Source of the DNA: Confluentibacter lentus
GTDB lineage: Bacteria > Bacteroidota > Bacteroidia > Flavobacteriales > Flavobacteriaceae
Length of the DNA stretch: 64,000 nt
Reading direction: 5' to 3'
Assembly (NCBI RefSeq): GCF_002806995.1
Contig: NZ_NIHE01000002.1
Coordinates: 124,001 to 188,000 of the forward strand
Part shown: in pieces, positions 18,194 to 27,528 of the stretch
Layout: each line of letters opens with the position of its first letter
Position numbering within the stretch: the stretch's first letter is position 1
Program-made: the position numbers and the translations under genes
The notes under the pieces: model-generated
Told to the model about the DNA's origin: nothing
Seen by the model: the letters and a program-made list of their open reading frames with translations, nothing else
Database searches by the model: none

Positions 18194-18219
18194 CTCTCTC
18201 TATCCCTGATGATCAGCAT

Positions 18220-18249
18220 AAACTACCATATGACCTATGGTAGTTTTTT
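18220..18249 (+). terminator. Terminator after marR
   Basis: The 11-base arms AAACTACCATA and TATGGTAGTTT are separated by TGACC and followed by TTTG. It isolates marR from the trp leader region that follows. Confidence 0.8.
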
Positions 18250-18272
18250 GTTTAAAAAAACACGTGAAAGTA

Positions 18273-18303
18273 TTGTGTAATTATATTTTCATTTCTATAT
18301 TTG
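18273..18303 (+). promoter_or_regulatory. trp operon promoter
   Basis: A TTG (-33 element, 18273-18275) and TATATTTG (-7 element, 18296-18303) are separated by 20 bp, matching the Bacteroidota sigma-factor consensus. The predicted start near 18310 leaves about 14 bases before the leader-peptide ATG at 18324. Confidence 0.65.
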
Positions 18304-18323
18304 GCACAGTTAAAACAATATTA

Positions 18324-18386
18324 ATGAATACAATTTTAAATAATACTTGGTGGTGGAGCTTTAGAAACTTAAATTTCGTGAAGTAA
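18324..18386 (+). CDS. trpL: trp operon leader peptide (three tandem Trp codons)
   Basis: A 20-codon open frame between the trp promoter and a terminator encodes MNTILNNTWWWSFRNLNFVK. The three consecutive TGG codons are at 18348-18356, and its stop at 18384-18386 lies 29 bp before the terminator stem. This is the arrangement of a ribosome-mediated attenuator: scarcity of charged Trp-tRNA would stall translation at the WWW run and alter RNA folding. I could not find a convincing antiterminator pairing, so the exact switch is unresolved. No Shine-Dalgarno sequence is evident, as is normal here. Confidence 0.8.
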   Translation: MNTILNNTWWWSFRNLNFVK

Positions 18387-18415
18387 AACCTAGTATATTT
18401 AAAACTCAAAATATC

Positions 18416-18449
18416 AAAAAGGCTTGTCATTCACGACAGGCCTTTTTTT
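18416..18449 (+). terminator. trp attenuator terminator
   Basis: Stem AAAAAGGCTTGTC / GACAGGCCTTTTT with one G-T pair, a 6-base loop (18429-18434) and seven T (18443-18449) directly before the first ATG of the trpE frame. Placed after the Trp-codon leader peptide, it is the predicted attenuation site. Its right arm contains a GGCC site, the predicted target of the HaeIII-like system at 26.5 kb. Confidence 0.82.
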
Positions 18450-18464
18450 ATGAAACTATTTATG

Positions 18465-19865
18465 ATGACATTTAATTTACATACGTACCACAAAAAAATA
18501 TTAACCGATACCATTACGCCAGTTACCGTTTACTATAAAATAAGGGACAAATACCCTAATAGCATTCTATTGGAAAGTGGCGACTACCATGCGAGCCAAA
18601 AAAACTTCTCCTATATATGTTTTAATCCCATTGCATCTATAAAAGTTGAGAATAATGTTATTTCTGAAACATTTCCTGACCGAAGTATCACATCAAAACC
18701 AATAGATAAAACGATTAATTTGGCAAATGAAATCCATCTTTTCACCAAACGCTTCAAAACAAATAAAGAGGAAGATTTTAAGTTCATACATAATGGCATT
18801 TTTGGTTACACAGCTTATGATGCCGTAAGATATTTTGAGGATATAGAGATTGGCATAAAAGAAGGCTCCATAAACATTCCTGATATGTATTATGCTGTTT
18901 ATCAAAATATTATTGCCATCAATCACTTTAAAAACGAGGCTTATATTTTTGCACATTGCTTTAATACAGAAAATAATATTGATGCCATTGATTCCTTAAT
19001 AAATATTCAAAATTTTGCATCTTATAAGTTTACCGCATCAGGAGACATCAAATCAAACCTATCTGATGAAGACTATAAATCACACGTAGAACTAGCAAAA
19101 AAACATTGCGCGCGTGGCGATGTGTTTCAATTGGTATTATCAAAAAGTTTCACTCAGGAATTTAAAGGCGATGAATTTAACGTTTACAGGGCTTTAAGAA
19201 GTATCAATCCGTCTCCTTACCTATTTTATTTTGACTATGGTAATTTTAAAATCTTTGGAAGTTCGCCTGAAGCCCAACTGATTGTAAGTGATGGCAAAGC
19301 CGAAATCCACCCCATTGCAGGAACTTTTAAACGCACCGGTGATGATTTAAAAGATGCCGAATTGGCTGAAGCTCTAAAAATCGACAGTAAAGAAAATGCC
19401 GAGCATGTGATGCTGGTAGATTTGGCAAGAAATGATTTAAGCAGACATGGTAGCCAAGTAACCGTAAATACCTATCGTGAAGTTCAGTTTTTTTCACATG
19501 TCATCCATTTGGTGAGTAAAGTGACCGGACAAAAGCATAAAGAAACACCGACCATGCAAGTCGTTGCCGACACGTTTCCTGCTGGAACTCTCAGTGGTGC
19601 CCCAAAACACAGAGCCATGCAACTGATTGAACAATACGAAAAAACAAGTCGCGGTTTTTATGGTGGCGCTATTGGTTTTATGGATTTTGATGGCAATTTT
19701 AACCACGCTATTATGATTAGGACTTTTTTAAGTAAAGACCATAAATTGCATTGGCAAGCGGGTGCTGGTTTGGTTTCAAAATCAAATCCAGAACACGAAT
19801 TACAAGAAGTTTATAATAAATTAGGTGCATTAACAAAAGCCATTAAATTAGCGGAAGACATATAA
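18465..19865 (+). CDS. trpE: Anthranilate synthase component I
   Basis: Converts chorismate to anthranilate with ammonia supplied by TrpG. From ATG 18465 it has 466 residues. An LLES segment (Trp feedback site) lies near residue 32. The chorismate-binding core follows: PIAGTFKRTGDD, DLARNDLSRHG, a GTLSGAPKHRAM block, and GAGLVSKSNPEHELQE at the C-terminus. In-frame ATGs at 18450 and 18462 are alternatives; 18450 abuts the terminator T-run, and family members start near the FNLHTYHKKIL segment, so I favour 18465. Confidence 0.95.
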   Translation: MTFNLHTYHKKILTDTITPVTVYYKIRDKYPNSILLESGDYHASQKNFSYICFNPIASIKVENNVISETFPDRSITSKPIDKTINLANEIHLFTKRFKTNKEEDFKFIHNGIFGYTAYDAVRYFEDIEIGIKEGSINIPDMYYAVYQNIIAINHFKNEAYIFAHCFNTENNIDAIDSLINIQNFASYKFTASGDIKSNLSDEDYKSHVELAKKHCARGDVFQLVLSKSFTQEFKGDEFNVYRALRSINPSPYLFYFDYGNFKIFGSSPEAQLIVSDGKAEIHPIAGTFKRTGDDLKDAELAEALKIDSKENAEHVMLVDLARNDLSRHGSQVTVNTYREVQFFSHVIHLVSKVTGQKHKETPTMQVVADTFPAGTLSGAPKHRAMQLIEQYEKTSRGFYGGAIGFMDFDGNFNHAIMIRTFLSKDHKLHWQAGAGLVSKSNPEHELQEVYNKLGALTKAIKLAEDI

Positions 19866-19868
19866 AAA

Positions 19869-20432
19869 ATGAAGATACTAGTTATAGATAATTACGACAG
19901 TTTCACTTATAATCTCGTTCATTATTTAGAAGATTTAAACTGTGATGTAACCGTATTAAGAAATGATAAATTAACCTTAGAAGATGTGGAGCCGTTTGAT
20001 AAAATCGTATTATCACCGGGCCCAGGCATTCCAGATGAAGCTGGTTTATTAAAACCTATCATTAAAAAATATGCGCCAACTAAAAGTATTCTAGGAGTCT
20101 GTTTGGGTCAACAAGCTATTGGAGAGGTTTTTGGCGGTACGCTTATCAATTTAGACGAGGTGTATCATGGTGTTGCCACTAAAGTCACGATTACGGTAGA
20201 TGACGAATCGTTATTTAAAGGCCTTGAAAAAGAAATTGAAGTTGGTCGCTACCATTCTTGGGTGGTTGATGCCAATTTACCTGAAAGTTTGGAAGCTACA
20301 TCTTTTGATGCAAACGGTCAAGTGATGTCTTTACGCCATAAAGTCTATGATGTGAGAGGTGTGCAATACCATCCAGAATCTGTATTGACACCTTTTGGAA
20401 AACAAATATTGAAGAACTGGATTGATAGCTAG
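19869..20432 (+). CDS. trpG: Anthranilate synthase component II (glutamine amidotransferase)
   Basis: Hydrolyses glutamine to feed ammonia to TrpE. 187 residues, class I glutamine amidotransferase: LSPGPGIPDEAG, nucleophile loop GVCLGQQAIGEVFGG (Cys about residue 79) and the catalytic HPES near residues 167-170. It starts 3 bp after trpE. Chain length is typical for the stand-alone subunit. Confidence 0.95.
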   Translation: MKILVIDNYDSFTYNLVHYLEDLNCDVTVLRNDKLTLEDVEPFDKIVLSPGPGIPDEAGLLKPIIKKYAPTKSILGVCLGQQAIGEVFGGTLINLDEVYHGVATKVTITVDDESLFKGLEKEIEVGRYHSWVVDANLPESLEATSFDANGQVMSLRHKVYDVRGVQYHPESVLTPFGKQILKNWIDS

Positions 20433-20436
20433 AATA

Positions 20437-20491
20437 CAGATGATAGACGATAGACAAGAGATTTTAGATTACAGACTTAAGATAAGAGATT
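20437..20491. repeat. Low-complexity GATAGAC-type repeat before the four-helix-bundle gene
   Basis: The spacer after trpG reads as degenerate copies of ACAGA/GATAGAC (ATACAGATGATAGACGATAG, then ATTACAGAC). The same type of sequence, inverted, occurs at about 54955-55005. It includes the left 12-bp arm of the inverted repeat around the next gene. Confidence 0.5.
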
Positions 20492-20860
20492 ATGAACAAT
20501 TATAAGGATTTAAAGGTTTGGCAAAAATCAATGGACTTGGCTGAAAAAGTTTATATTTTATCAACTACGTATCCAAAAGAAGAAAAATATGGGTTGATTA
20601 GCCAAATTCAAAGAAGTGTCATTTCCATCCCATCAAACATTGCTGAAGGTGCTGGAAGGAATTCAAATAAAGAATTTAGAAACTTTCTGGGAATCGCCAA
20701 TGGCTCCATTAATGAATTAGCAACACAATTAACACTTTCAATTAGAATCGGTTATGTAAAAGAAAACGAATTAGAGGATATTTTTAATCTGATCACTGAA
20801 ATCCAAAAGATGAATTTCACCTTAATTAAAAAATTTTCTAATTTCTAATATCTTAAGTCT
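20473..20860. mobile_element. Four-helix-bundle gene framed by a perfect 12-bp inverted repeat
   Basis: AGACTTAAGATA (20473-20484) and its exact complement TATCTTAAGTCT (20849-20860) bracket the gene at 20492-20848, with the right arm starting at the base after the stop codon. The unit separates trpG from trpD, which are normally adjacent. The framing and the intrusion into an operon suggest an inserted element of about 388 bp; no recombinase is encoded. Confidence 0.5.
20492..20848 (+). CDS. Four-helix-bundle protein (23S rRNA IVS / Avd-like family)
   Basis: 118 residues of the four-helix-bundle family first seen in 23S rRNA intervening sequences and related to Avd of diversity-generating retroelements. 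Diagnostic features: YKDLKVWQKSMDLAEKVY at the N-terminus, the central YGLISQIQRSVISIPSNIAEGAGR and the C-terminal ITEIQKMNFTLIKKF. A basic, nucleic-acid-binding role is expected from family structure, but its function here is unknown. No reverse transcriptase is nearby. It lies inside the trp operon, in the same direction. Confidence 0.88.
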   Translation: MNNYKDLKVWQKSMDLAEKVYILSTTYPKEEKYGLISQIQRSVISIPSNIAEGAGRNSNKEFRNFLGIANGSINELATQLTLSIRIGYVKENELEDIFNLITEIQKMNFTLIKKFSNF

Positions 20861-20867
20861 ATAGTCT

Positions 20868-21860
20868 ATGAAAAACATATTAAACAGACTCATAAACCAC
20901 GAAACCTTGGCAAGCGAAGAGGCAAAACAGATTTTGGTAAACATTTCCAACCAAATGTACAACCAAAGTCAAATTGCTTCCTTTCTGACAATTTTTATGG
21001 TACGAAGCATTACACTTGAAGAACTTAAAGGGTTTAGAAATGCCCTGTTGGAACTTTGTGTCCCCATCCATTTAAACGATTTTAATGCCATTGATTTATG
21101 CGGTACTGGTGGTGATGGTAAAGACACCTTTAACATTTCAACATTGGCCTCATTTGTCACTGCTGGTGCGGGTGTCCATGTGGCTAAGCACGGTAATTAT
21201 GGTGTGTCTTCATCTTGTGGCTCATCAAATGTTATGGAGTTTTTAGGCATTAAATTCTCGAATGACGAGGATTTTTTAAAACGCTCCATAGACAAAGCAG
21301 GCATTTGCGTGTTGCACGCACCCTTATTTCATCCAGCCATGAAACATGTCGCTCCCATTCGTCGTGAATTGGGCGTAAAAACGTTTTTCAACATCTTGGG
21401 CCCCATGGTAAATCCATCATTTCCAAAAAATCAAATGGTTGGGGTGTTTAATTTAGAATTGCTTCGGCTTTACGGTTATTTATATCAGAACACCGATAAA
21501 AATTATAGCATTGTGCATGCCTTAGATGGCTATGATGAAATATCTTTGACAGGAAAAACAAAAGTGATTTCCAACGACAGTGAACTATTATTTTCACCCG
21601 AAGATTTGGGACTTTCGCAAATAAAACAAGAGGCCATTTATGGTGGAGATACTGTGGAGGCATCCGCTAAAATCTTTATGGAGGTCATTCAAGGAAAAGG
21701 CACCGAAGCACAAAACAATGTGGTTTGTGCCAACGCAGGTTTAGCGATTGCGACCGCAAAGCAAATCAGTCACAAACAAGGATTTGAACTGGCCAAAGAG
21801 TCTTTATTTTCTGGGAAAGCCAAAACAAGTTTAGAGACATTAATTGCATTGAGTAAATAA
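20868..21860 (+). CDS. trpD: Anthranilate phosphoribosyltransferase
   Basis: Transfers the phosphoribosyl group of PRPP to anthranilate. 330 residues with the PRPP-binding glycine motif CGTGGDGKDTFNIST (about residues 78-92), the KHGNYGVSSSCGSSNVMEFLG block and the HPAMKHVAPIRRELGVKTFFNILGPMVNP segment. Its ATG follows the right arm of the four-helix-bundle insertion after 7 bp, so its translation start sits at the insertion boundary. Confidence 0.95.
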   Translation: MKNILNRLINHETLASEEAKQILVNISNQMYNQSQIASFLTIFMVRSITLEELKGFRNALLELCVPIHLNDFNAIDLCGTGGDGKDTFNISTLASFVTAGAGVHVAKHGNYGVSSSCGSSNVMEFLGIKFSNDEDFLKRSIDKAGICVLHAPLFHPAMKHVAPIRRELGVKTFFNILGPMVNPSFPKNQMVGVFNLELLRLYGYLYQNTDKNYSIVHALDGYDEISLTGKTKVISNDSELLFSPEDLGLSQIKQEAIYGGDTVEASAKIFMEVIQGKGTEAQNNVVCANAGLAIATAKQISHKQGFELAKESLFSGKAKTSLETLIALSK

Positions 21861-21863
21861 AAA

Positions 21864-21951
21864 CGTCATTACGAGGAGAGAAAAGACGAAGTAATCTCTT
21901 CCTGATAAAAAGATTGCCACATCACACAAAAAAATGTGATTCGCAATGACG
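21864..21951. repeat. Palindromic repeat R1, trpD-trpC spacer
   Basis: About 88 bp, starting CGTCATTACGAGGAGAG and ending CGCAATGACG, which pair as a long imperfect hairpin with inner parts GAAGTAATCTC and AGATTGCCAC. It belongs to the same family as R2-R4. The element ends two bases before an upstream in-frame ATG of trpC. Confidence 0.85.
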
Positions 21952-21967
21952 AATGAAAAAAAGAAAA

Positions 21968-22753
21968 ATGAATATATTAGATAACATAGTCGCTGATAAA
22001 CGTAACGAAGTCGATTTAAAAAAATCGTTAATTCCAGTTTCCCAATTAGAACAATCTGTTTTATTTGAACGTAAAACAACGTCTTTAGCCCATAAATTAA
22101 AAAACAGTAGCTCAGGCATTATTGCCGAGCACAAAAGACGCTCGCCTTCAAAATCGACCATCAATCAGAATTTAAACGTACAAGATGTGGCAAGAGGATA
22201 TGAAGAGGCTGGTGTATGTGGGATGTCCGTTTTAACCGATTTAAAATATTTTGGTGGCGCTTTGGACGATTTATTATTAGCCAGAGCTAGTTGTAACCTA
22301 CCTTTGTTAAGAAAGGAATTTATTATTGACGAATACCAAATATTGGAAGCCAAAGCCTATGGTGCCGATGTTATTTTGTTGATAGCTGCGATTTTAACGA
22401 GAACGGAAATCAAACAATATTCAGAGTTTGCCAAGAGTTTACAACTGGATGTACTTTTAGAAGTCCATAACGAAGAAGAATTACATAAATCCATCATGCC
22501 AAGTTTGGATATGTTGGGCGTAAACAATAGAAACTTAAAAACTTTTGAAGTCAGCTTAAACATTAGTAAAACACTAAGCAATATGATTCCAAATGAGTTT
22601 GTAAAAGTCTCTGAAAGCGGTATTAGTACCATTGAAGCCATTAAAGAATTACAGCCTTTTGGGTTCCAAGGCTTTTTAATTGGGGAGAACTTTATGAAAA
22701 CGGATAATCCTGGGGAAAGTGCTAGGCAATTTATAAATGAATTAAACAAGTAA
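21968..22753 (+). CDS. trpC: Indole-3-glycerol-phosphate synthase
   Basis: Closes the indole ring from CdRP. A TIM-barrel protein of 261 residues from ATG 21968 (MNILDNIVADKRNEVDLKK). Active-site marks are IIAEHKRRSPSKS (Lys), LRKEFIIDEYQILEAKAYGADVILLIAAIL, LLEVHNEEEL, GVNNRNLKTFEV and VSESGI. The ATG at 21953 would add only KKRK-type residues encoded next to repeat R1 and is less likely. TrpF is separate here, not fused. Confidence 0.94.
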   Translation: MNILDNIVADKRNEVDLKKSLIPVSQLEQSVLFERKTTSLAHKLKNSSSGIIAEHKRRSPSKSTINQNLNVQDVARGYEEAGVCGMSVLTDLKYFGGALDDLLLARASCNLPLLRKEFIIDEYQILEAKAYGADVILLIAAILTRTEIKQYSEFAKSLQLDVLLEVHNEEELHKSIMPSLDMLGVNNRNLKTFEVSLNISKTLSNMIPNEFVKVSESGISTIEAIKELQPFGFQGFLIGENFMKTDNPGESARQFINELNK

Positions 22754-22829
22754 CGTCATTACGAGGAGAGCAACGACGAAGTAATCCTGTCAAAAAGAAA
22801 CAGATTGCTTCACGCTTTTCGCAATGACG
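22754..22829. repeat. Palindromic repeat R2, abutting the trpC stop codon
   Basis: Begins CGTCATTACGAGGAGAG immediately after the TAA of trpC and ends CGCAATGACG; 76 bp. The arms pair end to end. It is a member of the R1-R4 family. A different small hairpin (TTCCTGC/GCAGGAA, 22845-22862) follows. Confidence 0.85.
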
Positions 22830-22844
22830 GTAAAAACAAAAAGA

Positions 22845-22862
22845 TTCCTGCCTCAGCAGGAA
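22845..22862. repeat. Short TTCCTGC/GCAGGAA palindrome
   Basis: TTCCTGCCTCAGCAGGAA forms a 7-bp stem with a 4-base loop. The same stem sequence recurs in the element at 54373-54439 (ATTCCTGCCTTCGCAGGAAT), so this is a second family of dispersed palindromes located between trpC and trpF. Confidence 0.7.
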
Positions 22863-22893
22863 ATCGAAGATTCAACAAAGTCAATGACAAAAT

Positions 22894-23535
22894 ATGAAGC
22901 TTAAAATTTGCGGTATGAAATACCAAGATAATATAGAACACGTTGCAACATTGCAACCAGATTATCTTGGCTTTATTTTTCACGAAAAATCCATTCGGAA
23001 TTTCGGTAAAAACGACATGCCCCAGATACCACATTCCATAAAAAAGACAGGGGTTTTTGTGGATGCTGAACTTCATGACGTTATTGATAAAATTAACTTT
23101 TATCATTTGCATGCAGCTCAATTGCATGGGCATGAATCACCTGAATATTGCAAACAATTAAAAACATATAATATTGAAATCATCAAAGCATTTTCAATAG
23201 ACAAGCATTTCAATTTTGATGATTTAAAACCATACGAACCTGTTTGTGATTACTTTTTATTTGACACAAAAGGCAAATTACCAGGAGGTAACGGATACAC
23301 GTTTGACTGGACTATTTTAAATAAGTATCCTTCAACAAAACCGTTCTTTTTAAGTGGTGGTATTGGTTTAAATGAGGTTGAAAGTTTGTTGTCATTCCTA
23401 GAAAAGCCAGAATCAAAATATTGTTATGCCATCGATGTGAATAGTAAATTTGAAATAGAAGCAGGATTAAAAGATATTGAGAAATTAAAAGAGTTTAAAC
23501 ATAACGTCATTACGAGGAGAGAAACGACGAAGTAA
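22894..23535 (+). CDS. trpF: Phosphoribosylanthranilate isomerase
   Basis: Amadori rearrangement of PRA to CdRP. 213 residues, TIM barrel: KLKICGMKY (catalytic Cys), LGFIFHEKSIR, KTGVFVDA, AAQLHGHESPEYC, the FDTKGKLPGGNGYTFDW block with catalytic Asp, and FLSGGIGL. The native C-terminus should be about ...LKEFK; the last nine residues (VITRRETTK) and the stop are encoded by repeat R3, which has replaced the original gene end. Confidence 0.93.
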   Translation: MKLKICGMKYQDNIEHVATLQPDYLGFIFHEKSIRNFGKNDMPQIPHSIKKTGVFVDAELHDVIDKINFYHLHAAQLHGHESPEYCKQLKTYNIEIIKAFSIDKHFNFDDLKPYEPVCDYFLFDTKGKLPGGNGYTFDWTILNKYPSTKPFFLSGGIGLNEVESLLSFLEKPESKYCYAIDVNSKFEIEAGLKDIEKLKEFKHNVITRRETTK

Positions 23536-23588
23536 TCCCATCAAAAGAAACAGATTGCCACAACTTTTTCAAAAGTTTCGCAATGACG
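23505..23588. repeat. Palindromic repeat R3, overlapping the 3' end of trpF
   Basis: 84 bp, CGTCATTACGAGGAGAG... to ...CGCAATGACG. Its first 31 bases are translated as the end of TrpF and its GAAGTAATC segment supplies the TAA. The remainder fills the spacer before trpB. Confidence 0.85.
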
Positions 23589-23602
23589 GTAATTAAAATA
23601 AT

Positions 23603-24784
23603 ATGAATTACAACGTAAACCAAAAAGGCTATTATGGAACATTTGGAGGGGCATTTATCCCAGAAATGCTCTACCCCAATGTAGAAGAATTACGCCAAAA
23701 ATATTTGGAAGTGATGGCAGAACCTGACTTTAAAAAGGAATTCAACCAATTGCTGAAAGATTATGTGGGTCGTCCGTCTCCACTCTATTTTGCCAAACGA
23801 CTTTCAAAAAAATACAATACCAAAATCTATTTAAAGCGTGAAGATTTAAACCATACGGGCGCACATAAAATCAACAACACCATTGGTCAGATTCTCATGG
23901 CAAAACGTCTTGGAAAAACCAGAATTATTGCCGAAACAGGTGCGGGACAACACGGTGTGGCCACAGCGACGGTTTGTGCTTTAATGGGATTGGAATGTAT
24001 TGTGTATATGGGCGAAATTGATATTGCCCGTCAAGCTCCAAACGTGGCCCGTATGAAAATGTTAGGTGCTAAAGTAGTGCCTGCCTTATCAGGTAGCAGA
24101 ACGCTTAAAGATGCGACCAACGAGGCCATTCGCGATTGGATTAACAATCCCGTAAATACGCATTATATCATTGGATCGGCTATTGGACCACATCCGTATC
24201 CAGATATGGTTACACGGTTTCAATCGGTTATTTCCGAAGAAATCAAATGGCAATTAAAAGAACAGGAAGGTAGGGAAAACCCCAATTACGTGGTCGCTTG
24301 TATTGGCGGTGGCAGTAATGCTGCTGGTACGTATTACCATTTTTTACACGAACCAGATGTGAAGATTATCGCTGTGGAGGCTGCTGGATTGGGGGTGAAT
24401 TCCGGTGAAAGTGCCGCCACGTCTGTTTTAGGAAAAGAAGGCATCATTCATGGTTGTAAAACACTGTTGATGCAAACTGTCGACGGACAAATTACAGAAC
24501 CTTATTCTATTTCCGCTGGGTTGGACTATCCCGGTGTTGGCCCGATGCATGCGCATTTAGCAAAAACGGGACGTGCCGAATTTATGGCCATCACCGATGA
24601 TGAAGCCATGACCGCTGGATTAGAGCTATGCCAATTGGAGGGCATCATTCCTGCCATTGAAACTTCTCATGCACTTGCTATTTTTGAGCAAAAAACCTTT
24701 AAAGCAGATGATGTTATTGTCGTGAGTTTATCGGGGCGTGGGGATAAGGATTTAGATACTTATATAAAATATTTTAAACTGTAA
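23603..24784 (+). CDS. trpB: Tryptophan synthase beta chain
   Basis: PLP enzyme joining indole and serine. 393 residues with the PLP Lys in the [21 protein letters not shown] block (about residues 86-106), the [17 protein letters not shown] block, phosphate-binding GGGSNAAGT and the C-terminal [14 protein letters not shown]. It pairs with TrpA, encoded next, to form the alpha2-beta2 complex with an indole tunnel. Confidence 0.96.
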
Positions 24785-24853
24785 CGTCATTCCGAACGTA
24801 GTGAAGGAATCTCATAAAAAGATTGCCACGTCACTTCGTTCCCCGCAATGACG
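24785..24853. repeat. Palindromic repeat R4, abutting the trpB stop codon
   Basis: 69 bp starting CGTCATTCCGAACGTAGTG directly after the trpB TAA and ending CGCAATGACG. It is a divergent member of the R1-R4 family: the outer arms are conserved, the inner part is replaced. A TTG-initiated frame through it could extend TrpA but is an artefact of the repeat. Confidence 0.8.
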
Positions 24854-24867
24854 AAAACCTCATAATT

Positions 24868-25632
24868 ATGAATCGAATTCAAAATAAACTACAAGAAGAC
24901 AAAAAACTTCTATCCATATATTTTACGGCGGGGTATCCTAGTTTGAACGATACCGTAACCATCATTCAGGATTTAGAAAAAAGTGGCGTTGATATGATTG
25001 AAATCGGCTTGCCTTTTAGCGACCCATTGGCCGATGGCCCAACCATTCAAGCGAGCTCCACCCAAGCTTTAAAAAACGGCATGACTTCCGAAGTACTTTT
25101 CAATCAATTGAAAGACATCCGTAAAACGGTGAACATTCCGTTAATCATCATGGGCTATTTTAATCCCATACTTCAATACGGTGTGGAAGCCTTTTGTAAA
25201 AAATGTCAAGAAGTTGGTATTGACGGACTCATTATCCCCGATTTACCTGTAGATGTGTATCATGATGATTATAAAACCACGTTTGAAACATACGGCTTAA
25301 TCAATGTGTTTTTAATCACGCCACAAACCTCCGATGACCGCATTCATTTTATTGATTCCGTCTCTAACGGCTTTATTTACATGGTAAGCAGTGCCAGTGT
25401 TACGGGCAGTCAGTCTGGTTTTGGAGACGAAAACACAGCGTATTTTAAACGCATTGCAAATATGAATCTAAAAAATCCGCAGATTATTGGTTTTGGCATT
25501 TCGGATAATAAAACATTTACACAAGCTACAGAATATGCCAAAGGGGCGATAATTGGTAGTGCGTTTATAAAGTTTTTAAGTGATACCTCCGTAAACGCCA
25601 TTCATGAATTTGTAAAAGCCATTAAAAACTAA
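24868..25632 (+). CDS. trpA: Tryptophan synthase alpha chain
   Basis: Cleaves indole-3-glycerol phosphate to indole and G3P. 254 residues from ATG 24868 (MNRIQNKLQEDKKLLSIYFTAGYP). Catalytic Glu in IEIGLPFSDPLADGPTIQ and Asp in IIPDLPVD are present; GFIYMVSSASVTG and GFGISD complete the phosphate site. Its stop overlaps the trmL start by one base (TAATG). Confidence 0.95.
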   Translation: MNRIQNKLQEDKKLLSIYFTAGYPSLNDTVTIIQDLEKSGVDMIEIGLPFSDPLADGPTIQASSTQALKNGMTSEVLFNQLKDIRKTVNIPLIIMGYFNPILQYGVEAFCKKCQEVGIDGLIIPDLPVDVYHDDYKTTFETYGLINVFLITPQTSDDRIHFIDSVSNGFIYMVSSASVTGSQSGFGDENTAYFKRIANMNLKNPQIIGFGISDNKTFTQATEYAKGAIIGSAFIKFLSDTSVNAIHEFVKAIKN

Positions 25633-26103: not shown

Positions 26104-26147
26104 TTTGAAATTGATCAAAATATTATAAATTTGTCAAAAAATGACAA
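26104..26147 (+). promoter_or_regulatory. Promoter/operator of the restriction-modification genes
   Basis: TTTG (26104-26107) and TAAATTTG (26126-26133), 18 bp apart, fit the Bacteroidota promoter. A perfect inverted repeat TTGTCA-AAAAA-TGACAA (26131-26147) starts inside the -7 box and runs over the ATG at 26141. A dimeric HTH protein bound there would block its own promoter, as in controller (C) protein loops. The predicted transcript begins at or very near the ATG, so translation may be leaderless. Confidence 0.6.
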
Positions 26148-26482
26148 GTCTTATGAAAACAACATTTGGCGAATATATCCGACATTTACGAACAGAAAAG
26201 GATTTAACCCTCACCCAACTTGCGGCCAAACTGAATTTAGATTCTGCAAATTTGAGCAAAATAGAGAACGGAATTCGAGATTTTGATGAAAAAAGACTTC
26301 CAAAATTGGCAAGAATATTTGGTCTGAATATCAAAGATTTGAGAGAAGAATATATAACCGACCTGCTTGGTAAAAAAATTTACGAAACGAATTGTTCTAA
26401 ACAACTTTTAAAAGTAGCTGAAGAAAAAGCTGAATATCGCAGAATACGAAATAAAAACCTTCAAACAGAAAAAACAGTATGA
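26141..26482 (+). CDS. Small XRE-family HTH controller of the RM system
   Basis: 113 residues. The N-terminal half is a Cro/C1-type [58 protein letters not shown] basic helical tail of about 35 residues follows, longer than in minimal C proteins. Its stop overlaps the methyltransferase start by 4 bp (ATGA), so it heads the RM operon. ATG 26153 is an alternative start. Control of RM expression is inference from position and the overlapping palindrome. Confidence 0.8.
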
Positions 26483-27528
26483 AAATAGTATCATTTTTTG
26501 CAGGAGCAGGGGGATTAGATTTAGGATTCCAGAAAGCAGGTTTTGATGTGATTTGGGCAAACGAATATGACAAGGAAATTTGGGAAACTTATGAAAGAAA
26601 TCATTCTAAAACAACTTTGGACAAAAGGAGTATTATAGATATTAAATCTAACGAAGTTCCTGAATGTGATGGAATCATAGGCGGTCCACCTTGTCAAAGT
26701 TGGAGTGAAGCAGGTTCTTTGCGTGGGATAAACGACAAACGAGGACAGTTATTTTTTGATTTTATTAGAATCTTAGAAGCCAAACAACCAAAGTTTTTTC
26801 TTGCGGAAAACGTAAGTGGTATGCTTTTAAACAGACATAGCGAAGCATTAACAAATATCAAGGAATTATTTAAAAACGCAGGTGTTGGATATGAATTATC
26901 CTTTCAGTTATTAAATGCTTCGGATTTTGATGTACCACAAGATAGAAAGAGAATTTTTTTCGTTGGAATTCGTAAAGATTTGAATTTTAAATTCCAATTC
27001 CCTAAACCAGTAAAAGATAAAATCACACTTGAAGATGCTATTTTTGACTTAAAAGATAGTGTTGTACCAGCAAAAGAAGGAAATAAAACCAACGTAGAAA
27101 ATTGCAAAATTTCAAATCATGAATACATGATTGGAGGATTTTCTTCAATGTTTATGTCCAGAAATCGTGTGAGAGCTTGGGACGAACAATCGTTTACAAT
27201 ACAAGCAGGCGGTCGTCATGCACCCATTCATCCACAAGCTCCAAAAATGAAGTTTATAGAACAAAACGTTCGTGAATTTGTAAAAGGCAAAGAAGATTTA
27301 TACAGAAGATTGAGTGTAAGAGAATGTGCAAGAATCCAAACGTTTCCAGATAATTTTACATTTCACTATAAACATATAGCAGCAGGTTACAAAATGATTG
27401 GGAACGCAGTTCCTGTTAATCTTGCAAAACACATGGCTTTGAGTATCAAATCTCAAATTGAAAACGCCGAAAATAAATTCATAAAAAATAATAAGAAAAA
27501 ATTGGAATTAGAAAACACTTTATTATAA
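26479..27528 (+). CDS. DNA (cytosine-5) methyltransferase, M.HaeIII-like
   Basis: Methylates the RM target. 349 residues with all C5-MTase motifs in order: [36 protein letters not shown] (catalytic Cys), [24 protein letters not shown], a target-recognition region with [16 protein letters not shown] and [54 protein letters not shown]. These blocks, including the recognition region, closely follow what I recall of M.HaeIII, so GGCC is the predicted target. Confidence 0.9.

Follow-up and report, generated by a model that had tools for sequence, protein, structure and literature searches.

Introduction

Does the short reading frame with tandem tryptophan codons in front of trpE in Confluentibacter lentus belong to a ribosome-mediated transcription attenuator, and if so, which RNA pairing keeps the following terminator from forming? 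In E. coli trpL, tandem Trp codons are combined with an antiterminator that engages the left arm of the terminator (2:3 pairing). Bacteroidota usually initiate translation in the absence of a Shine-Dalgarno sequence, and an attenuator in this phylum would let the coupling of transcription to translation be tested cleanly where ribosomes start without one.

We analysed a stretch of 64,000 nucleotides (hereafter the window; NZ_NIHE01000002.1, positions 124,001 to 188,000). A preliminary description of it had implied that Trp-leader attenuation in Bacteroidota was new. That does not hold, as the class has been described since 2010 and is represented in Rfam as RF01692: Bacteroid-trp was tabulated as a Bacteroidetes cis-regulatory RNA motif (Weinberg 2010, PMC2864571), an attenuator-like leader of the Flavobacterium psychrophilum trp operon was named in 2019, with the analogy to E. 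coli drawn (PMC6414381), and leader-peptide attenuation of flavobacterial amino-acid operons was reported in 2021 together with a map of transcription start sites (PMC9723704). The F. psychrophilum leader shares with the one studied here the Rfam element, the operon and a flavobacterial host, but the text of these two papers gives no antiterminator (PMC6414381, PMC9723704). The present analysis contributes the antiterminator, shows that it is conserved independently of the reading frame and finds the attenuator to be nearly universal in the family. A search of openly accessible papers returned no description of this antiterminator, and others may have drawn it before.

Results

A tryptophan leader, two hairpins and a terminator precede trpE

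The region between the upstream gene and trpE contains the following features, given with the evidence for each where it is not self-evident.

18296-18303, + strand: promoter box TATATTTG (TAnnTTTG), the Bacteroidota sigma-A -7 box (sequence, conserved in relatives)
about 18307, + strand: predicted transcription start
ATG 18324 to TAA 18384-18386, + strand: leader peptide reading frame of 20 codons, MNTILNNTWWWSFRNLNFVK followed by TAA
18348-18356, + strand: three tandem Trp codons, TGG TGG TGG (sequence and conservation)
18334-18404, + strand: outer hairpin, 18334-18351 with 18388-18404 (MFE fold, covariation)
18358-18384, + strand: inner hairpin, 18358-18367 with 18374-18384 (MFE fold, covariation)
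18376-18382, + strand: predicted antiterminator 5' strand, UCGUGAA (complementarity, conservation)
18430-18436, + strand: predicted antiterminator 3' strand, UUCACGA, spanning the terminator loop and the upper end of its right arm (conservation)
18416-18449, + strand: intrinsic terminator, AAAAAGGCUUGUC-AUUCAC-GACAGGCCUUUUU and a U run (fold, compensatory changes)
18465-19865, + strand: trpE, anthranilate synthase component I (Pfam PF00425, PF04715; a start at 18450 is possible)
19869-25632, + strand: trpG, a four-helix IVP-like gene, trpD, trpC, trpF, trpB and trpA (Pfam matches)

The leader thus carries a run of codons for the amino acid in question (WWW), and an intrinsic terminator lies between it and the first gene; the promoter, leader, three TGG codons, stop codon and terminator are all present where the preliminary description had placed them. 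The terminator arms occupy 18416-18428 and 18435-18447, followed by the T run to 18449. It had been said to end at trpE, and it does abut an ATG at 18450, the first in frame; the ATG at 18465 is nevertheless better supported as the start, since the conserved TrpE N-terminus of relatives aligns from residue 1-3 of the latter. The attenuator sits upstream of a complete trp operon and has the same placement in relatives.

In the absence of a ribosome, the leader RNA folds with -33.9 kcal/mol (z = -4.8 against shuffles). In this MFE fold the Trp-codon region and the sequence that follows the stop codon together form the outer hairpin, and the inner hairpin sequesters UCGUGAA.

Rfam RF01692 matches 18304-18428 with 61.8 bits (cutoff 49) over the whole model, 1-131, and is not truncated; it is the single copy in the C. 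lentus genome. A search of that genome with the spaced pattern TCGTGA-N25..55-TCACGA, which is its own reverse complement and therefore scores a single site on both strands, detected no second copy, whereas the reversed control pattern occurred six times. In the window all other Rfam leader families stayed below their cutoffs, and T-box riboswitch families gave no match at cutoff or at E<=1.

The tandem-Trp leader is conserved throughout the family

To place the C. lentus leader among its relatives, a TrpE search of 150 genomes of the family, with roughly one genome to each genus, supplied 110 trpE upstream regions (30 + 80 loci), which were picked by TrpE score and not by leader presence. A tandem-Trp leader precedes trpE in all 110. 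In 105 it is a short ORF that starts with ATG and contains the Trp run (102 WWW, 3 WW), and four further loci have the Trp run in an ORF initiated by TTG or GTG, all of them with both run and elements. In L018 (G041:C7) the leader lies further upstream, still with Trp run and elements; here an intact trp leader and terminator are parted from trpE by an inserted ORF which, judged by eye, resembles a GIY-YIG-type endonuclease. The promoter is similarly stable. Of 109 relatives, 106 have an exact TAnnTTTG no more than 60 nt from the leader start; in an upstream stretch taken as control the number is 2.

The hairpins also show covariation across the alignment. The inner hairpin scores 0.197 against 0.139 (0 of 500 shuffles; 60 double-change cells against 38.0) and the outer hairpin 0.146 against 0.111 (0 of 500; 54 against 27.8), so that both exceed all 500 shuffles as well as slid versions of themselves, with shuffles that ignore relatedness. 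Three pairs of the terminator are changed on both sides, giving 6 double-change cells against 1.0 in shuffles (0 of 500). The preliminary description had looked to an alignment of trpE upstream regions for a conserved Trp run and for covariation; the run is there in 110 of 110 loci, and covariation is found in the hairpins and the terminator but not in the antiterminator core (see below).

These data bear on two other explanations of the leader. One is that the terminator is constitutive, the small ORF is non-functional and the trp genes are controlled otherwise. Regulation in C. lentus is predicted from sequence, which leaves room for such a reading, but the promoter box, the Trp run, the spacing and both alternative pairings are all conserved across the family, and in F. 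psychrophilum five Rfam-predicted cis-RNAs, not individually named in the text, are reported as expressed, with profiles consistent with the signal sensed (PMC9723704). We therefore regard a constitutive terminator as scarcely credible.

The other explanation is that the leader acts through its product, either by TnaC-like arrest of the nascent peptide or as a peptide in trans, and that the conservation of NNTWWW reflects peptide function. The N-terminal half, MNTILNNTWWW, is indeed alike in many genera, and a trans function is on record for peTrpL of Sinorhizobium (PMC7298713). However, AAUACUUGG is joined to the CCUAGUAU segment within the outer hairpin, and this pairing, in which compensatory changes are seen, accounts for the conservation of the NTW codons at the RNA level: the codons ahead of the Trp run (AAU ACU) are likely kept because of this pairing. 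Moreover, the C-terminal half of the leader differs in sequence, frame and length among loci while the RNA element persists. A peptide-based mechanism is thus very improbable in our view.

A conserved predicted antiterminator joins the leader stop codon to the terminator

What, then, would open the terminator? At the stop codon of the leader lies UCGUGAA (18376-18382), a perfect complement to UUCACGA (18430-18436), and in the aligned leaders UCGUGA near the stop is the most conspicuous element apart from the Trp codons and the terminator. Among the 108 loci with a called terminator, CGUGA is found upstream in 105 and CACGA within the terminator in 107. The complementarity extends over 7-8 bp in 91 of the 108, over 6 in 15 and over 5 in 2, compared to a mean of 4.1 in shuffled regions, about 1.5% of which reach 7 or more. 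Between two groups of loci the helix slides by one pair, with an extra pair at one end in 49 loci, at the other end in 28, at both in 5 and at neither in 14, and its length consequently stays near 7.

The position of the element relative to the reading frame is telling. It falls into two frames of the leader in 52 and 25 loci, respectively, and into the third in 1, and it lies after the leader stop codon in 23; being kept across reading frames and past the stop codon, it is under selection as RNA and not as peptide. The core CGUGA:UCACG hardly varies and so has no covariation signal of its own, its score being not above shuffles. Support for the antiterminator is therefore its complementarity, its frame-independence and its spacing.

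A different pairing had been suggested in the preliminary description, in which AGCUUU directly after the Trp codons (18357-18362) pairs with AAGGCU in the left arm of the terminator. This would be the E. coli form, and the pairing can be formed, with six pairs including one G-U. Yet across the family the segment after the Trp codons varies freely (TGCTTT, AACAAC, AACTCT and others), it would sit beneath the stalled ribosome, and what is conserved in its place is UCGUGA:UCACGA. In single folds the post-stop segment also forms a helix with the terminator left arm, but across the family this second helix is no better than shuffles (mean 3.6 against 3.9). That the same leader attenuates with another pairing of this kind mainly opening the terminator is, in our estimate, unlikely to a high degree, although somewhat less so than the peptide-based mechanism considered above.

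Spacing and folding of the nascent RNA fit a kinetic switch

Alternation between UCGUGAA:UUCACGA and the terminator would depend on where the ribosome stands. The element begins 16-22 nt past the last Trp codon, 17-19 nt in 99 of 108 loci, and the position of the stop codon varies between 9 nt downstream and 11 nt upstream of the element start. The leading edge of the E. coli ribosome is found 12 nt past the A-site codon, and we set the edge to this E. coli value. With it, a ribosome at the stop codon covers at least five of the six nucleotides of the element in 101 of 103 loci, while a ribosome on the Trp codons leaves the element free.

Folding gave a consistent picture. With the 5' side masked to mimic a ribosome halted at the second Trp codon and the transcript truncated after the GAC of the right arm, the antiterminator formed with at least 5 pairs in 107 of 107 sequences, and at least 6 cross pairs were seen in 99% compared to 29% of shuffled controls. 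In the C. lentus leader the antiterminator remains the lowest-energy fold up to the 8th base of the terminator right arm, after which the terminator is more stable. Since the complete terminator (-18.4 kcal/mol) is more stable than the antiterminator (-11.3 kcal/mol), the switch must be kinetic, and in these folds the antiterminator can form first, ahead of the terminator. Computationally, then, the antiterminator excludes the terminator, is exposed by a stall on the Trp codons and is masked by a ribosome at the stop.

Discussion

A predicted attenuator and its relation to known systems

Conservation, geometry and mutually exclusive pairings make ribosome-mediated trp attenuation, as already proposed in the preliminary description, the best reading of the locus, and we hold it to be very likely that the leader, a member of RF01692, controls transcription of the trp operon as a ribosome-mediated attenuator. 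As far as sequence can establish them, the parts, their conservation, their spacing and the mutually exclusive pairings are in place; from the conservation of the codon run and the start codon we infer that the leader ORF is translated. That Trp supply alters readthrough into trpE is a prediction.

We propose that RNA polymerase starts near 18307 and that a ribosome enters the leader ORF at 18324. With ample Trp-tRNA, the ribosome would reach the stop codon (18384) and mask UCGUGAA (18376-18382), upon which the terminator at 18416-18449 would fold and transcription would end before trpE. With scarce Trp-tRNA, it would stall at 18348-18356 and prevent the 5' arm of the inner hairpin from pairing, so that the freed UCGUGAA could pair with UUCACGA (18430-18436) as this emerges from the polymerase. 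By occupying the loop of the terminator and the upper end of its right arm, the antiterminator would block the terminator and allow trpEGDCFBA to be transcribed. If the leader were not translated, the outer and inner hairpins would hide UCGUGAA, and the default would be termination.

Like E. coli trpL, this system has a short tandem-Trp leader, a stop codon near the antiterminator strand, and a mutually exclusive terminator and antiterminator. In contrast to the 2:3 pairing of E. coli, the C. lentus antiterminator is predicted to engage the loop of the terminator together with the upper end of its right arm, and the leader differs further in lacking a Shine-Dalgarno sequence and in its TAnnTTTG promoter. 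With RF01692 it shares the site before trpE, the Trp-run leader and the central hairpin, but the Rfam model draws the leader hairpin only and stops inside the terminator left arm, so that it includes neither the right arm of the terminator nor the antiterminator UCGUGA:UCACGA. RF01692 was above cutoff in 28 of 296 phylum genomes, under stricter filters than in the family survey, which suggests that the model catches only part of the true distribution. The conserved antiterminator, in turn, names the exact bases to mutate.

Near-leaderless leaders and leaders outside the family

No Shine-Dalgarno sequence was found before the C. lentus leader, and a Shine-Dalgarno-like 4-mer precedes the leader start in 2 of 105 loci and is absent from 103. 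In C. lentus the distance between the first T of TAnnTTTG and the start codon is 28 nt, with a predicted 5' UTR of about 17 nt. In 26 of 109 family loci, however, this distance is only 12-15 nt, which puts the start codon (ATG, GTG in one) 4-7 nt past the box, as in TATATTTGACCTAATG. From the usual position of the transcription start relative to the -7 box in Bacteroidota, the RNA of these 26 is predicted to begin at or a few nt from the start codon and would be leaderless or nearly so. They include L074, L083, L085, L091 and about 22 others, one example being TATATTTGaccta ATG. Such versions could show whether a leaderless start keeps pace with the polymerase.

Beyond the family, a WW or WWW leader precedes trpE in 15 of 17 full-length loci sampled in further families of its order and class; the exceptions are L133, with no leader directly before trpE and an Rfam match about 1.3 kb further upstream, and L124, with a WLW-like frame only. 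The leaders and terminators of these loci differ in sequence from those of the family, but the sequence that lies between the Trp codons and the terminator again shows complementarity to the latter in excess of shuffles, in many cases close to the stop codon or at it. In L127, CGCUGUGA pairs with UCACAGCG (p = 0.001), and in L132, GGGGUUCU pairs with AGAACCCC (p = 0.006). Individually, 8 of the 15 loci have p < 0.1 and 7 are not below p = 0.11; the combined p of about 2e-8 is overstated, as several loci are related and the terminators were delimited by eye. Five loci of a sister family (L129, L130, L131, L137 and L138) have a distinct, strongly conserved trp leader ending LSNSSSGLK.LSCC, with a terminator of its own, GGCUUUGACGG...CCGUUAAAGCC.

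With a confidence that falls a little short of even, we suggest that Trp leader-peptide attenuation may be the ancestral or default form of trp control across Bacteroidota, that a stop-codon antiterminator pairs with the terminator loop and arm, and that about a quarter of the sampled genera of the family have leaderless or near-leaderless versions.

The surroundings of the trp operon

Three further observations concern the neighbourhood of the attenuator. Upstream, a terminator-like inverted repeat, AAACTACCATATGACCTATGGTAGTTTTTTG, lies 3' of a MarR-like gene (18217-18250, + strand), and would shield the trp promoter from upstream transcription. Within the operon, the gap between trpG and trpD holds a four-helix-bundle gene for a '23S rRNA-intervening sequence protein' (IVP, PF05635; 20492-20848, + strand). 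Just past the operon (26141-27528, + strand), a DNA cytosine methyltransferase-like gene is preceded by a small helix-turn-helix (controller-like) gene, a pair that, to judge from the translations alone, is suggestive of a restriction-modification locus.
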